DNA of 64,000 nt. It comes from Naumannella halotolerans. Its GTDB lineage: Bacteria > Actinomycetota > Actinomycetes > Propionibacteriales > Propionibacteriaceae. Location of the stretch: the NCBI RefSeq assembly GCF_004364645.1, contig NZ_SOAW01000002.1, positions 496,001 through 560,000 of the forward strand, given 5' to 3'. The notes under the pieces were generated by a model. That model saw nothing but the letters and a program-made list of their open reading frames with translations. It had not been told where the DNA came from and searched no databases. Position numbers and translations under genes: made by a program. This document shows positions 42,582-48,955 of the stretch, one piece after another; position 1 is the first letter of the stretch, and the number at the start of each line of letters is the position of its first letter.

Positions 42582-42674
42582 GCAGGCGGCGGGTGATCCG
42601 GGTCAGATTCGCCGGCCGCGGGCTGCCCGGTGGCAGCCCGCGGCCCAACCGTCCTCCACCCCCTGGATGCCGAA

Positions 42675-42741
42675 CCTTTCCGCAGGTTCGGCCCCCTGGC
42701 GGGCTGCGTAGGGGCCGTACCTGCTGAAGAAACGCGGTAAC
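42675..42741 (-). repeat. Interspersed hairpin repeat, copy A
   Basis: On the minus strand it begins near GTTACCGCGTTTCTTCAGCA and carries arms AGGTACGGCCCC and GGGGCCGAACCT (one mismatch) around a ~15-nt loop. It matches copies B-E. Confidence 0.8.
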
Positions 42742-42824
42742 GGGGCAGCGCCGATGGTCGGCGCCCGCGTGAGAGTCCGGTCCAGGTCTCACAGTGAGGG
42801 TGGGTCATTCACCCGCCCTTGCAG

Positions 42825-42892
42825 CCTCTTCCGCAACTCTGGCCCCCTGGCGGGCCGTGCAGGGGCCGTACCTGCTGGAGAAACGCGGTGAC
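42825..42892 (-). repeat. Interspersed hairpin repeat, copy B
   Basis: Same orientation as copy A, about 80 bp further on. The minus strand reads GTCACCGCGTTTCTCCAGCA then the GGCCCC/GGGGCC hairpin, slightly more diverged on its distal arm. Confidence 0.75.
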
Positions 42893-43061
42893 GGGCCCGC
42901 ACCGTCCCGTCGGCCCGAGCGTCGCGCCGACACAGACCCCGGCCCCGACCGTCCCGCCGATGCGGCTCGATCGCTCGCCGACCACGGCCGCGACACTCAG
43001 CCGGACCCATCGATGCGCGACAACCGAATCGATTTCAACCAAATGCGGGTGGGGGTGAACA

Positions 43062-44705
43062 ATGGTCGCCATGTCGTCCCTGCCCTCGAAGCTGTCAGCC
43101 CGGTTCGCCGACGTCGCCGGGGTGGATCCGGAGCTGCGTCCGGCCACCAAACCGCAGTTCGGTCATTTCCAGTCCAATGTCGCCCTGCGGCTGGCCAAGT
43201 CCGAGGGACAGAACCCGCGAGCGGTCGCCCAGCGACTGGTCGACGAGATCGACGTGGCCGACTTGGCCGAGCCGTTGGAGATCGCCGGCCCGGGGTTCAT
43301 CAACATCCGGTTGAAGCCCGAGGTGCTGGCCGCCGAGGCCGAGCAGGTACGGACCGATCCGGCGAACGGCATCGTGGCGGCCGAGCAGCCGCAGACCGTG
43401 GTGATCGACTACCCGAGTGCGAACGTGGCCAAGCAGATGCACGTCGGGCATCTGCGTACCTCGGTGATCGGCGATGCCTTCAACCGGGTGCTCACCGCCC
43501 TCGGGCACACGGTCGTACCGCAGGACCACATGGGCGACTGGGGTCGGCAGTTCGGCATGCTCGTGGAGCAGGTGTTGGACGAGAAGGTCGATGCGGCGTC
43601 ACTGTCACTGGCGGAGTCCGAGGCGCTGTACAAGCGGGCCCAGGCACACTTCAACGACGATCCGGCCTTCGCCGATCGGGCACGCAAGCGGGTGGTGCTG
43701 CTGCAGTCCGGCGACCCGGAGACGATCAAGCTCTGGCAGGCGATGGTCGAGTCCTCGCGGCAGGGTTTGTTGAAGACCTACCAGCGACTGGGGATCAAGG
43801 TCGGGTTGGACGACTTCGACGGGGAGTCGCGCTACAACGACGATCTGCCGAAGGTGGTCGAGGAGCTGGAAACCGACGGCATCGCGGTGATCGATCAAGG
43901 TGCGCTCTGTGTCTTCGTCGACGGTTTCGCCGCCCCGATGATCGTCCGTAATCGTGAAGGCGGTTTCGGGTACGCGGCCACCGATCTCGCCGCGATCCGC
44001 CTGCGGGTGAACGAGATCCAGGCCGACCGGATCCTCTACGTCGTAGACGTACGCCAGTCCGACCATTTCGCCCAGGTCTTCGACACCGCCAAGCGGGCCG
44101 GTTGGCTGCCCGATTCGGTGGAGGCCCGGCACATCCCGTTCGGCACCGTCCTGGGGGCGGACAACAAGCCGTTGAAGACCCGTGACGGTGGCACCGCGAC
44201 CCTTGATTCGTTGTTGGACGCCGCCGAGACCGAGGCGTCGCCGGAGATCGCGCTGGCCGCGATCAAGTACGCCGATCTGTCGAACTCGTTGATCAAGGAC
44301 TACGTTTTCGATCTTGAGCGGATGGTACGTACCTCCGGGGACACCGGACCGTACCTGCAGTATGCGCATGCGCGCTGCAACCAGGTGTTGCGCAAGGCCC
44401 AGGCCGAGGGGTACGCGATCGGCCCGATCACTGTGCTGGACGAACCCGCGGAACAGCAGCTGGCGCTGAAGCTGACCCAGTTCGGTGAGGTGGTGGCCGA
44501 GGTCGGGCAGAGTCTGGCCCCGCACAAGCTGACGAGCTATCTCTACGACCTGGCCGAGTCGTTCTCCGGCTTCTACGAGAAGTGCCCGGTGCTGAAGTCC
44601 GAGGGTGAGGTACGCGCCACCCGCCTCGGGCTGGTGCAGGCGACCAAGGAGGTCCTGGCCCAGGGTCTCGACCTGCTCGGAATCGTCGCCCCCGAACGGA
44701 TGTGA
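43062..44705 (+). CDS. argS: Arginyl-tRNA synthetase
   Basis: Charges tRNA-Arg with arginine. 547 residues, class I. N-terminal additional domain (FGHFQSNVALRLAK, residues ~33-46). HIGH-type motif HVGHLRTSVIGDAFNRVL preceded by DYPSANVAKQM. Later: FGYAATDLAAIRLRV, DVRQSDHFAQVF and the anticodon-binding DALR domain (YLQYAHARCNQVLRKA). The KMSKS motif is not canonical, as usual for ArgRS. A second ATG at 43071 is possible. No T-box or other leader control is visible. Confidence 0.94.
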   Translation: MVAMSSLPSKLSARFADVAGVDPELRPATKPQFGHFQSNVALRLAKSEGQNPRAVAQRLVDEIDVADLAEPLEIAGPGFINIRLKPEVLAAEAEQVRTDPANGIVAAEQPQTVVIDYPSANVAKQMHVGHLRTSVIGDAFNRVLTALGHTVVPQDHMGDWGRQFGMLVEQVLDEKVDAASLSLAESEALYKRAQAHFNDDPAFADRARKRVVLLQSGDPETIKLWQAMVESSRQGLLKTYQRLGIKVGLDDFDGESRYNDDLPKVVEELETDGIAVIDQGALCVFVDGFAAPMIVRNREGGFGYAATDLAAIRLRVNEIQADRILYVVDVRQSDHFAQVFDTAKRAGWLPDSVEARHIPFGTVLGADNKPLKTRDGGTATLDSLLDAAETEASPEIALAAIKYADLSNSLIKDYVFDLERMVRTSGDTGPYLQYAHARCNQVLRKAQAEGYAIGPITVLDEPAEQQLALKLTQFGEVVAEVGQSLAPHKLTSYLYDLAESFSGFYEKCPVLKSEGEVRATRLGLVQATKEVLAQGLDLLGIVAPERM

Positions 44706-44743
44706 CCTCCCGATCCCGGGGGATCTCGCGACGGGCTGGTTGA

Positions 44744-45748
44744 TCACCCGCGGTACTGCGCCGGGCTGAGCCCGAACTGCCTCTTGAACGCCGCGCTGAG
44801 GCTGAACGGATTGGCATACCCCACACGGGTGGCGATGCTCGACAGAGTCAGGTCGGTGTCGCGCAGCAGATCGGCGGCCAGGGACAGGCGCCACTGGTTC
44901 AGGTAGGCGATGGGTGAGGTACCCGTCACGGTCTGGAACCGGCGACTGAGGGTGGAGGGGGACACACCGGCCTCATCGGCCAGGGAGACCACACTCCACG
45001 GCAGGTCCGGCCGTCGATGGATGATCTTGATCGTCTCGGCCACCACGTGATCACGGGAGCATGGACCCATGACCGGTGCTCGGCCGGAAGATCATGGGCC
45101 CACTCGCGGATGGTCGACACCAGCACGATGTCGAGCAGTCGGTCCAGCACACTGCTCTGGCCGATCTCGTTGCCGTCGAGTTCGGCGCTGAGGGATTCGA
45201 GGTACGAAGCGTGTGGGCGCTGCCGTACCAACACCGCGGCAACAGCTCGAGCAGCATGCGCCCCACCTCGGCCTGATTGCGATAGCTGGCGACCAGCATC
45301 GTGTCCGGGCCCGCGGGATCGTTTCCCCACTGTCGGATCCCGGTGCCGAAGCGTTCGGTGAGATTCGCCCCTGTGTCGTCCGAACAACTCTGGCCGGGCC
45401 CGATCCAGATGTCGGGGCGCAGGGTGAGGTCGCTGGACAGCAGGTAGGGGAGCTCCCCTTGATCAACGCCACGTCGCCGGCACGCAACAACGCTGCCGGT
45501 TGGTCGGGATGACGCAACCAGGCGTTCCCGGTCAGCGGAGCCACCAGGGTGAGCGGTGCATCGTCGCTCACCTCCATCGACCACGGCGGAGCCATCGAGA
45601 CATGCAGCAGGAACGCATTGCTCGCGCGGACACCATCCAGGTAGTCGCTGAGTGGATCCACACCGACCACCGTAGTGATCACGGCGACCGCGTGATTCGG
45701 GACCCGGTCGCTGTGGTGGACCGGGGCCAGGTCAGTCACCGGTCGCAC
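44744..45748 (-). pseudogene. AraC-family regulator, broken by several frameshifts
   Basis: Parts of a cupin-type AraC regulator are spread over frames. The N-terminus is in one frame (DPLSDYLDGVRASNAFLLHV). After about 45455 the frame changes (GELPYLLSSDLTLRPDIWIG), again near 45230 (RQRPHASYLESLSAELDGNE), and again near 45065, where the helix-turn-helix region is intact (WSVVSLADEAGVSPSTLSRR, VGYANPFSLSAAFKRQFG). Three shifts argue for a true pseudogene. Its start lies inside the 3' end of the DUF1772 gene, so it was once its operon partner. Confidence 0.8.
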
Positions 45749-46214
45749 CGAGGAGGGTGGCTGCGGACAGGGAGAGTGCCGAGACCGCGGACAGGCCGGC
45801 TCGAATCGAGTTCGCTCTGGTCCAGTGGGTCAGGTAGTGCCGCCAGAAGGCATCTCCACCCGAGCCGCGCTCCAGGGTTGCCAACCTGTCGTCCAGTGGC
45901 ACGTTGTAGGCGATGGTCAACAGGAAACCGGCCAGGTACGCCACGCCGCCGAGAGCCGCGACCGCATCGATGGCATCCCTGTCCCCGCGGAGCACGCGTA
46001 ACAACAGGATGGCCGAGGCCACGGCGGCGCCGAAGAAGCAGATCATGAACGGCGCCTGGACGGCCGCGCGATTGAAGCCTTGCATCCTGGCGATTCCGGT
46101 GGCTGGTGCCAGCCGCCCGAGTTCGGGCATCACCCGTACCGAGAAGTTGAGGTAGACCGCTGCTGTCACCGCGCTGAGCAGCGCTCCGGCGGTGCAGAGA
46201 AGAGTACGGAACAT
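45732..46214 (-). CDS. DUF1772 / anthrone oxygenase-family membrane protein
   Basis: 160 residues with four hydrophobic segments. The pattern NFSVRVMPELGRLAPATGIA, MQGFNRAAVQAPFM, and YNVPLDDRLATL, WRHYLTHWTRANSIRAGLS is characteristic of DUF1772/anthrone oxygenase-like proteins, which include small membrane oxygenases. Function in this genome is unknown. The start ATG at 46214 gives the full four-helix product. The promoter side faces the minisatellite. Confidence 0.75.
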   Translation of the reverse strand: MFRTLLCTAGALLSAVTAAVYLNFSVRVMPELGRLAPATGIARMQGFNRAAVQAPFMICFFGAAVASAILLLRVLRGDRDAIDAVAALGGVAYLAGFLLTIAYNVPLDDRLATLERGSGGDAFWRHYLTHWTRANSIRAGLSAVSALSLSAATLLGATGD

Positions 46215-46321
46215 GGGATGGGCTCCTCGGTGGCTGTGGCCGAGGTCGGTCGTGTGGACGCAGTCCCAGTCGATCGTGAGCTGCCCGGTCGTGCCCATGT
46301 CGGGCCGGGGCGGCGTCATAT

Positions 46322-46519
46322 GTCAACGGGTCAGCGGATCAGCGGGTCAATGGATCAGTGGGTCAGCGACTCAGTGGGTCAGTGGGTCAGTGGGTCAGTG
46401 GGGCAGCGGGTCAGTGGGTCAGTGGGGCAGTGACTCAGTGGGTCAGTGGGTCAGTGGGGCAGTGACTCAGTGGGTCAGGGGGGGCAGCGACTCAGCGGGT
46501 CGGCGGGGTAGTGGGTCAG
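46322..46519. repeat. 8-bp minisatellite
   Basis: About 25 tandem units of GGGTCAGT with scattered variants (GGATCAGC, CGACTCAG). The period of 8 is not a multiple of three, so it is not coding. It lies between the divergent DUF1772 and MFS genes. Confidence 0.9.
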
Positions 46520-46659
46520 CATGCGTCGCTTCGACCGACGCCCCTGAGAAGCGGGACCTGGCCGTGCGCAGCGACGTCAGGTTGCCGACGTGAGGCAGGC
46601 AGGTTCCCAGTACGGTCACACCGCCGGTCGGGGCAGATCCAGTGCCATACTCGAAGGCT

Positions 46660-47961
46660 GTGACGACTCCTCCCAGCAAGGCACGGGATCGGTTCGAATC
46701 CCTCTTCGCCGATACCCGGCCGTTGCAGAACACCCACTACCGGCATCTGTGGGTGGCGAACATCGTCACGGTGATCGGGGCGCAGCTGACCGTCGTCGCA
46801 GTGCCGGCGCAGATCTATGCGCTCACCCAGAGCTCGGCGATGGTCGGCCTGACCGGACTCTTCGGCCTGGTGCCGCTGGTTGCCTTCGGGCTCTGGGGTG
46901 GTGCGCTGGCCGATGCGATGGATCGTCGAACGCTGTTGATCATCACCACCTTGGGTTTGATCGGTACCAGTGCGCTGTTCTGGTTGCAGGCCCATCTGGC
47001 GATCGACAACGTCTGGCTGGTACTCGCCCTGTTCTCGGTGCAGCAGGCGTTCTTCGCGGTCAACCAACCGACGCGAAGTGCGCTGTTGCCGCGGATCCTG
47101 CCGACTGATCAACTCCCGGCGGGCAATGCGTTGAACATGACCGTGATGCAGGCCGGTGGGATCGCCGGACCACTGGTCGCCGGGGCGCTGATCCCGTTCA
47201 CCGGCCTGGCCACGCTCTACCTGATCGACACCTTCGCACTCGGCGCGACGCTCTGGGCGGTGATCACATTGCCGCACATGCCACCGACCTCGGGGGCATC
47301 GGCGGTCCCCGGGCTGCGGTCGGTGATCGACGGATTCGGCTACCTCGCCGGGAACAAGGTGCTGCTGATGTCCTTCGTGGTCGACATCATCGCCATGCTC
47401 TTCGGTATGCCACGGGCGCTGTTCCCGCAGATCGCCCACGAGAGTTTCGGCGGTGAGATCGACGGCGGGTCGATCTTCGCCGCGCTGTTCGCTGCGATCC
47501 CGCTGGGGGCCGTCCTCGGCGGGGTCTTCTCCGGTTGGGTGTCCAAGGTCGAGCACCAGGGTCGGGCGGTGATCATCGCCATCGTCATCTGGGGACTGGC
47601 GATGACCGGTTTCGGAGTGGCGGTCGGCTTCGCCGGGGTGTCGCTGCAGGTCGCGCTGGTCGTGGCCGTGGTGATGCTGGTGATCGGCGGCGCGGCCGAC
47701 ATGGTCTCGGCCGCCTTCCGTTCGACGATGCTGCAGGAGGCGGCGACCGATGAGGTCCGCGGCCGGTTGCAGGGGGTGTTCATCGTGGTCGTCGCCGGCG
47801 GGCCCCGGATGGCCGATGTGGTGCACGGAGGCGCTGCGGCCGTCGTCGGTACGGCAGTCGCCTCGGCCGGTGGCGGGATCCTGACGGTCGTACTGACCGT
47901 GGTGGTGGCGCTGGCCGTACCGACCTTCGTCCGGTATCGGGTCGTCCGCGCGGTGCACTGA
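46660..47961 (+). CDS. MFS transporter, EntS-like
   Basis: 433 residues, 12 helices. HYRHLWVANIVTVIGAQLTVVAV, the loop GGALADAMDRRTLLI (motif A region) and GGIAGPLVAGALI fit the MFS_3/EntS-like group, some of which export siderophores. The GTG at 46660 is favoured: a TACTC promoter-like site lies just upstream. An ATG at 46642 would add six residues. The upstream minisatellite lies within 150 bp of the start and could affect expression. Confidence 0.82.
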   Translation: MTTPPSKARDRFESLFADTRPLQNTHYRHLWVANIVTVIGAQLTVVAVPAQIYALTQSSAMVGLTGLFGLVPLVAFGLWGGALADAMDRRTLLIITTLGLIGTSALFWLQAHLAIDNVWLVLALFSVQQAFFAVNQPTRSALLPRILPTDQLPAGNALNMTVMQAGGIAGPLVAGALIPFTGLATLYLIDTFALGATLWAVITLPHMPPTSGASAVPGLRSVIDGFGYLAGNKVLLMSFVVDIIAMLFGMPRALFPQIAHESFGGEIDGGSIFAALFAAIPLGAVLGGVFSGWVSKVEHQGRAVIIAIVIWGLAMTGFGVAVGFAGVSLQVALVVAVVMLVIGGAADMVSAAFRSTMLQEAATDEVRGRLQGVFIVVVAGGPRMADVVHGGAAAVVGTAVASAGGGILTVVLTVVVALAVPTFVRYRVVRAVH

Positions 47962-48213
47962 GCGTTGTCTCGGGTGGTGGGACGTCGCTACCCCGGGTGC
48001 TTGTGAGTCCAAGCGACCGAGGTTGAGATGGCCCCCGACGAGGTCGCGTAGACCCGGCGCGGGTCAGCGCGACAGACGACCTCCGGCGTGCTGATCGATC
48101 GACGTCCGGATGCCGGGGATCCTCTCAGCGATGGTCGCGGGCCGAGATGTCCTCGTGCGGTTCCGTGGGACCTCGGGTGAGGCTCCACCGCCCGGCCGGG
48201 GAGCGTCGGGGCC

Positions 48214-48270
48214 GTCACCGCATTCCTTCAGCAACGTCGACCCTTGCGCAGCCGGTGGTGCGGCCGGTAC
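48214..48270 (+). repeat. Interspersed hairpin repeat, copy C (partial)
   Basis: Begins GTCACCGCATTCCTTCAGCA. The distal half is lost where it joins copy D. Confidence 0.7.
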
Positions 48271-48274
48271 GCCC

Positions 48275-48343
48275 GTCACTGCGTTCCTTCAGCAACTTCG
48301 GCCCCTGCGCAGCCGGTGGTGCGGCCGAACTTGCCGAAGGGGT
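48275..48343 (+). repeat. Interspersed hairpin repeat, copy D
   Basis: Begins GTCACTGCGTTCCTTCAGCA. Arms AACTTCGGCC and GGCCGAACTT pair except at one position. Confidence 0.8.
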
Positions 48344-48498
48344 TGCCCCGCGGGTGATTCTGGCCCGGCCTCACGGCACTGGTCCTGCCTGAGCGGGTGG
48401 GACTCGTGTGCACGGTGGGACGCGTGTGCCGTCCGTGGCCACAGCGAGGATGGTGGGCCCTTGGGTTGGACAGCCCCTCCAGTGGAGCGTCGGGGCCG

Positions 48499-48564
48499 GC
48501 ACTGCGTTTCTTCAGCAAGTTCGGCCCCTGCGCAGCCTGTGGAGGGGCCGAACTCGCGGAAGGG
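48499..48564 (+). repeat. Interspersed hairpin repeat, copy E
   Basis: Begins GCACTGCGTTTCTTCAGCAA. Arms AAGTTCGGCCCC and GGGGCCGAACTC pair at 11 of 12 positions. Like copy C it is preceded by GGAGCGTCGGGGCCG. Confidence 0.8.
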
Positions 48565-48674
48565 GATTGCCGTTGCAGGGGCTCCGAGGCTTCTGGGGCT
48601 CCGGGGATTGCTGTCGCAGGGGATCCGAGGCTTCGGGGGCTGCAGCGGAGCCGTGCCATGTGTGGTGCTGGGTC

Positions 48675-48782
48675 GGAACAAGACAAACGTCACACTCGAT
48701 TCGGGGCCGTGCACCGAGCAGCGCGAGGTGGCGCGGGCGGCCGGGATGGTCGTCGGATCGAGTGTGACGTTTGTCTTGCTTC
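48675..48782. repeat. Long inverted repeat with perfect 21-bp arms
   Basis: 48680-48700 and 48757-48777 are exact inverted complements (AAGACAAACGTCACACTCGAT). Similarity extends about 6 bp outward with one indel. The 56-nt spacer has no gene. It could be a strong hairpin or the residue of a small mobile element. Confidence 0.75.
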
Positions 48783-48880
48783 CCCGCGACGTCCCCGGCC
48801 TTCCCGCGACGTCCCCGGCCTCCCTGCGACGTCCCCGGCCTCCCTGCGACGTCCCCGGCCTCCCCGCGACGTCCCCCGCC
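48781..48880. repeat. Five tandem copies of a 20-bp unit
   Basis: The unit TCCCCGCGACGTCCCCGGCC is repeated exactly at a 20-bp period with one to three changes per copy. It is non-coding because the period shifts the frame. Confidence 0.9.
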
Positions 48881-48955
48881 TCCCGCAACTCCCATGAGTT
48901 CCTCGCGACTCCCCGCGACTTTCCCTGCCATTCCCCTCGACGGCACTATGGTCCG

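Follow-up and report, generated by a model that had tools for sequence, protein, structure and literature searches.

A dispersed family of 61-bp palindromes, REP/REPIN-like in several respects, in the genome of Naumannella halotolerans

Repeat copies in the window

The stretch analysed here (the window) comprises 64,000 nucleotides of the Naumannella halotolerans genome (RefSeq assembly GCF_004364645.1, contig NZ_SOAW01000002.1, positions 496,001 to 560,000), and positions given without a contig or locus name refer to the whole of this stretch. Two of its intergenic regions carry copies of a short palindromic repeat, one lying between a gene for an F420/NADP oxidoreductase and argS, the other between a gene for an MFS transporter and a kinase-like P-loop gene with a weak match to MeaB. 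The nearest named relative of argS is that of Enemella evansiae (Propionibacteriaceae; 68%), in a comparison from which records very near the window were possibly excluded. A preliminary description of the window had pointed to five copies of an interspersed hairpin repeat at these sites, and this is borne out by four full copies, each consisting of a 13-nt head and a 61-bp palindrome, and one truncated copy.

The first region holds two full copies on the minus strand, c1 (42673-42746) and c2 (42824-42897), which score 81.6 and 82.3 bits, respectively, with R1, a covariance model built from all six members of this group (branch A). In the second region, three copies lie on the plus strand, namely c3 (48209-48269; 40.3 bits), the right arm of which is truncated; c4 (48270-48343; 87.6 bits), which c3 abuts and which starts 61 bp after the start of c3; and c5 (48493-48566; 91.3 bits), a nearly perfect inverted repeat. 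The sixth copy is located on contig C1 of the same genome (2236691-2236764); over 69 bp it matches c5 with 91% identity (E=4.7e-22), and it was retrieved, together with c4 (E=6.9e-20, 89%) and c1 (E=3.5e-11, 81%), with c5 as a DNA query against this genome (3.47 Mb). The same search did not return c2 and c3, whose R1 scores arise by construction, as R1 was built from all six copies. A further match, of 27 bp at C1:432138 with E=0.0025, lies, by eye, inside a coding sequence, which we take to be YggT, and was judged to be due to chance. A pattern search of the genome gave 33 rows, corresponding to the five window copies, the C1 copy and 27 others, 24 of them with three mismatches and three, which were read, with two. 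The Rfam scan of the window returned tRNA only.

It is very improbable that these copies go back to chance or to one local duplication. Five of the six lie within 6 kb, c3 abuts c4, and c3 and c5 have 15 nt (GGAGCGTCGGGGCCG) in common upstream, running up to the head, which indicates that these two may be locally related; as an account of the whole set this explanation is contradicted by E values of 1e-11 to 1e-22, by the copy on contig C1 and by the wider family described below. The flanks of the C1 copy and c5, c5 and c4, c1 and c2, and c1 and c5 could not be aligned, with the exception of about 20 nt of the 3' tail that the C1 copy and c5 have in common with a 1-nt shift; the flanks being mostly unrelated, a single larger local duplication does not account for the set.

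That the copies lie only in gaps holds within the window, by the gene calls of our own script, and fails for the sixth copy, which overlaps an ArsR-type open reading frame (L070, 6682-7083, contig C1) over its final ~28 codons, counting the stop; the script had missed this 3' end. The ~28 C-terminal codons of this reading frame appear to be repeat-encoded.

A wider family and its main branch

Taken narrowly, the family is nearly confined to the window, with one further copy in the genome; taken more widely, it extends far beyond it. Apart from the six copies and their reverse-strand echoes, R1 detected eight distinct loci in the N. halotolerans genome (30.8-38.8 bits), with a further three at E<=1, as compared with a peak of 20.5 bits and two matches at E<=1 for a decoy with its rows read backwards (composition, length and pairing unchanged). 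Under stricter filters, E<=0.01 was reached in three of 56 other genomes, at one locus each. R1 also picks up strong palindromes that have a different origin; the excess in the N. halotolerans genome is nevertheless real. A widened covariance model of 13 rows, R3, seeded with R1 matches and run on 31 genomes, gave at least 119 matches in the N. halotolerans genome (G000), at least 19 in a congener (G001), three in Enemella (G014), two in G034, one each in G002, G005 and G037, and none in 24, the larger counts being lower bounds because 150 candidates were scored per genome (of 3769 in G000). Truncated c3 is absent among the R3 matches. Rescanning 49 N. halotolerans loci with R3 gave 120 matches, about half of which are the same palindromes from the opposite strand, and the distinct loci in this genome number at least 65, four window copies included. 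The consensus pattern had no match in a collection of genome contigs, from which the N. halotolerans genome was possibly excluded; the pair pattern of the main branch had none in viral contigs, and its typed consensus matched nothing in plasmids and phages.

The main branch, D, comprises 47 elements, each a 61-bp palindrome formed by two inverted half-sites of ~25 nt, the spacing of which is fixed. The half-site reads CRTCYGTTCCGCAG-S-A-NN-Y-GCA-S-YY (51 elements, four of them of branch A or C), and the arm TCYGTTCCGCAG, with up to one mismatch, has 69 + 75 matches in the N. halotolerans genome vs 8 + 6 for the reversed pattern. Among inverted arm pairs less than 150 bp apart, 41 of 45 have a spacing of exactly 47 bp and the remaining ones of 79, 83, 88 and 145, as counted in DNA of this genome that was largely picked by R3. 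An R3-independent search for the exact D pair, in which spacers of 25-55 were allowed, found 35 pairs in the same genome, and all 24 pairs listed have a spacer of 35, which in this pattern is the same spacing as 47 bp between arm starts. In the relatives the sequence is nearly absent, with no exact pair in the congener and one match, at spacer 49, among the other 145 genomes of the family, in two of which the reversed control also has matches. Both arms end in CRTC, mostly CATC (second base A in 72% and G in 26%; 51 elements), and these ends are conserved while the interior varies between elements.

The other branches were sorted by eye. The arms of branch A, to which the window copies belong, read TTTCTTCAGCA / TGCGGAAG, and those of branches B and C TTTTTTCAGCGGTTATGGCCCCC and TTCTTCTGCAGCAATGGCC, respectively; the 61-bp length is kept in nearly all rows. 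What links branch A to D is the R1 scores of two D loci (30.8 and 35.8 bits), the equal length and a TTC-N-GCA motif, and the window copies form a small side branch that kept the 61-bp length with a different arm sequence.

Conserved half-sites with a diverged interior and a constant 47-bp spacing are also in line with an explanation in which the elements are functional sites bound by a chromosomal protein of the host (a nucleoid, partition or silencing factor), with selection acting on half-sites and spacing. A second repeat family (see below), whose spacings cluster at 61-63 and at 73-74 bp and thus differ by about one helical turn, points the same way. We nevertheless regard this explanation as improbable, in that sites of ~60 bp are unlikely to have arisen anew tens of times, so that copying would still be needed, and in that the exact sequence is absent from the congener.

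Genomic position, stem pairing and spread

The elements are mostly intergenic and enriched just downstream of stop codons. With a first set of gene calls, 34 of 65 elements lie between co-directional, 24 between convergent and six between divergent genes, and one lies inside a weak open reading frame; with a second set, the 46 D elements with called neighbours divide into 24 co-directional, 18 convergent and four divergent, and the other 18 elements into 11, six and one, respectively. For comparison, the window's own gaps of more than 60 bp comprise 19 co-directional, nine divergent and six convergent ones. Eighteen of the 24 co-directional D elements are nearer to the upstream stop and six to the start, and a stop is found within 20 bp of 13 D elements, a start within 20 bp of none. 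The interspersed palindromic family resembling REP (repetitive extragenic palindromic) and BIME elements, as the preliminary description had it, is confirmed and is larger than was seen there, with at least 65 loci and a bias to gene 3' ends.

Intrinsic bidirectional terminators likewise lie between convergent genes and have hairpin potential. A rival explanation, which we consider rather unlikely, is therefore that the elements are bidirectional transcription terminators, or hairpins stabilising 3' ends, between genes, with a sequence that is common through duplication. While the 3'-end and convergent bias would be accounted for in this way, as would the strong stems predicted for D (mean folding energy -32.7 kcal/mol vs -15.4 kcal/mol for shuffles; 51 elements) and the position of nine of 14 palindromes of the congener and Enemella between convergent genes (nearest stop 1-35 bp), the T-tract of such terminators is absent, none of 130 downstream decamers on either strand having six or more T (mean 1.02 vs 1.48 further out). 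The fixed length and spacing, though loops need no set length, and the common sequence also set the elements apart from such terminators, and some of them stand between divergent genes (six of 65 by one count, five of 64 by another).

The pairing of the arms bears on the same explanation. Mismatches had been said in the preliminary description often to preserve pairing, which is not supported in branch A, where two-sided changes are found in 3 pairs vs 1.4 expected (a number reached in 58 of 500 shuffles; six copies) and pairing amounts to 0.72 for own halves vs 0.74 for swapped halves (five copies), tests with little power from five to six copies. Stem covariation is equally unsupported in D: at eight variable stem positions the halves agree at 0.428 vs 0.474 expected, a level reached or exceeded in 1949 of 2000 permutations (n=47), and no compensatory change is seen at these positions. 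This test repeated, with 47 strict D elements, a first one on 51 elements including four of branch A or C, in which five positions had z>=3.0. The folding energy of D elements (-32.7 kcal/mol) is nearly equalled by that of chimeras of different elements (-31.5 kcal/mol), which, together with the independence of the halves, argues that the arms are alike through a common consensus and not through mutual compensation. When branches A, B and C are taken together, the arms change jointly between branches (two of 1000 permutations as high), and within each branch alone there is no excess (928, 346 and 251 of 1000 permutations as high for A, B and C; n=5, 7 and 4). A hairpin-looking repeat alone is no evidence for RNA structure.

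Two D elements on different contigs are identical at 57 of 61 bases, and their 40-bp flanks match at 15/40 and 11/40, i.e., a near-identical pair stands in unrelated surroundings. Four other close pairs are neighbours within one locus. In L227, L221, L247 and L249, neighbouring D elements have near-identical interiors in direct or inverted orientation, which suggests local copying.

The reading that we favour, with some reservation, is that these are non-coding dispersed 61-bp palindromes, expanded in this species and REP/REPIN-like, which are moved or bound by a putative protein and have the look of copied DNA elements and not of RNA hairpins. Such a protein would recognise both half-sites as duplex DNA, or in an equivalent end-by-end manner, and would have copied the unit around the genome, gene 3' ends being the sites where insertions may be tolerated.

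A number of results weigh against this reading, beginning with those on mobility. A linked REP-type transposase, raised in the preliminary description, was not found: the RAYT profile (Y1 transposase, PF01797) had no match in any of three genomes searched (N. halotolerans, the congener and Enemella), the control being positive in six of 14 genomes including E. coli. Target duplications at four boundaries (k = 2, 3, 4, 6, 8) showed no clear excess (z -2.1 to 2.0; 51 elements, four of branch A or C), and no autonomous parent was seen, there being no IS-sized arm spacing, by eye, among the arm matches listed, and PF01797 being the one transposase family searched. On the side of pairing, the halves of D agree somewhat more than expected at position 13 (z 2.8; equalled or exceeded in 85 of 2000 permutations), the only position to keep such a value in the 47-element repeat, which covered selected positions and did not take 11 and 24 alone. 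The shuffle test on pair counts in the 13-row R3 seed is strongly positive; its rows were chosen by a structure-aware model and mix branches, which makes them lean to structure, and the pair counts were discounted for that reason. The palindromes of the congener fold better than their chimeras (-52.0 for own vs -43.6 for swapped halves, n=4; a second group of n=3 also better), which favours the terminator explanation and speaks against generalising the half-site independence of D. The link of branch A to D does not rest on high identity. Finally, the best R1 match outside the N. halotolerans genome is an Enemella palindrome of 52.9 bits, and R3 found, in 400 kb of the congener partly chosen around known matches, two loci outside the 31-genome R3 listing (L272, 6024-6097, 41.7 bits; L268, 19727-19800, 32.8 bits), which makes the congener count a lower bound.

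The spread of REPs and REPINs is usually attributed to RAYT transposases, and a REPIN-like population in an actinobacterium with no Y1/RAYT profile match, the half-sites of which vary independently and keep a fixed spacing, makes it testable what else spreads or maintains short palindromes.

Twenty stretches of the congener (400 kb) contained few element loci with matching flanks, and three gaps were read. In one orthologous gap, the congener has ~55 bp and no R3 match, as compared with ~250 bp holding one full and one partial element in N. halotolerans; in a second, an extra gene fills the gap in the congener, again with no R3 match. The third was set aside as not comparable, a tRNA-Gln gene standing there instead. 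These contrasts show a difference and not the direction of change. As for the window itself, ArgS of the congener is 80% identical and the gaps beside argS cannot be aligned; the counterparts of three window genes (the one at 38.4 kb, argS and the MFS gene at 46.7 kb) span 4.6 kb in the congener as compared with 9.5 kb here, from which it follows that the gap with c1 and c2 belongs to a region in which the two species are not alike. The gene after the second gap region has its orthologue ~10 kb from the MFS gene in the congener, and the gap with c3-c5 is therefore not comparable there.

Known systems, related species and a second repeat family

Miniature inverted-repeat transposable elements (MITEs) are non-coding and dispersed, and the present elements resemble them in both respects and in their inverted ends. 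According to the definition in Bertels & Rainey 2011 (PMC3116915), MITEs measure ~100-400 bp and have terminal inverted repeats; the palindromes described here are smaller, show no clear target-site duplication signal and have no parent insertion sequence that could be seen. The REPINs of the same paper have inverted conserved ends whose distance does not vary (71 bp between 16-mers), a less conserved spacer and an extragenic location, all of which finds its counterpart here in the inverted ends, the constant distance of 47 bp between arm starts, the variable spacer and the extragenic position. The present elements differ in that a Y1/RAYT gene was not found, in that the ends are, by eye, not separate REP palindromes, and in the total length of ~61 bp.

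The GTAG/CGTC-tagged REPs (Di Nocera 2013, PMC3733652) are described as palindromic, 20-40 bp long and unpaired in a tag that marks one of their ends, located mostly between unidirectional or convergent open reading frames and downstream of genes, and partly species-specific, those of the CGTC type being without a dedicated transposase; the word actinobacteria is absent from the main text of that paper. On that description, the likeness extends to the palindromic form, the convergent and co-directional gaps downstream of genes, the partial species specificity and a dedicated transposase not having been found, whereas the ends here are symmetric CRTC ends, part of the arm, and there is no unpaired GTAG/CGTC tag. 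With the tests for the end tag and for a RAYT gene both failing, the elements are named REP/REPIN-like and not a REP family. In agreement with the preliminary description, which knew of no such family for this lineage, no description of these families was found in the open-access literature on actinobacterial or propionibacterial REPs, RAYTs and palindromes, those of Cutibacterium included, in a search that mostly did not extend to subscription papers; five of the sequences, looked for as text, occurred in no paper.

The congener has its own versions of the palindrome, of GTCGTCAGTTATCGCC and TTTCCGCAGTTATGCCC types. Its palindromes of ~59-64 bp with GTCGTCAGTTATCGCC-like arms (L204, L207, L209, L258-L262) lie between convergent genes in five of eight cases by our own gene calls. 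In Enemella, the palindromes in L059 and L203 have TTTGTCAGCGACTAT arms and lie between convergent genes, the one in L059 being perfect, by eye, over ~60 bp. Tentatively, and with less confidence than for the favoured reading, each species of this actinobacterial lineage may have a dialect of its own, built on an inverted double half-site of ~61 bp (of the GTTCCGCAG type here, of the GTCGTCAGTTATCGCC type in the congener and GTTTGTCAGCGACTATGGCC in Enemella), which a non-RAYT protein system recognising duplex half-sites at fixed spacing would spread and hold uniform. Such species dialects, if true, would be a ready comparative set.

A second, unrelated inverted-arm element lies in the window at 48679-48778, with 25-nt arms 50 nt apart and the arm core ACAAACGTCACACTCGAT. 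With up to two mismatches, this core has 36 + 38 matches in the N. halotolerans genome, the reversed pattern having none, and 34 arm pairs, that of the window among them, and six single arms were read off the genome list. The pair spacings are 61-63 bp (16 pairs), 67 (1), 73-74 (16) and 86 (1), the main classes thus being ~12 bp apart, about one helical turn. The exact pair occurs in one of 147 family genomes, that of N. halotolerans (17 pairs), in a search limited to exact pairs elsewhere. The arms of this family are nearly invariant, and the spacers differ widely among the 21 elements listed; 11 of these elements are co-directional, six divergent, two convergent and two at an edge, so that the convergent bias of D is absent. 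This second family is possibly the stronger REPIN counterpart.

Other repeats lie close by. Two 39-nt direct repeats (90%) occupy 48562-48641 on the plus strand, the first starting with the 3' tail of c5, part of which the C1 copy also has. About 20 copies of a GGGTCAGT-like unit of 8 bp are arrayed in tandem at 46320-46519, in the intergenic region that precedes the MFS gene, and a 20-bp unit containing CGACGTCCCC is present in five copies at 48778-48885, directly after the second-family element.

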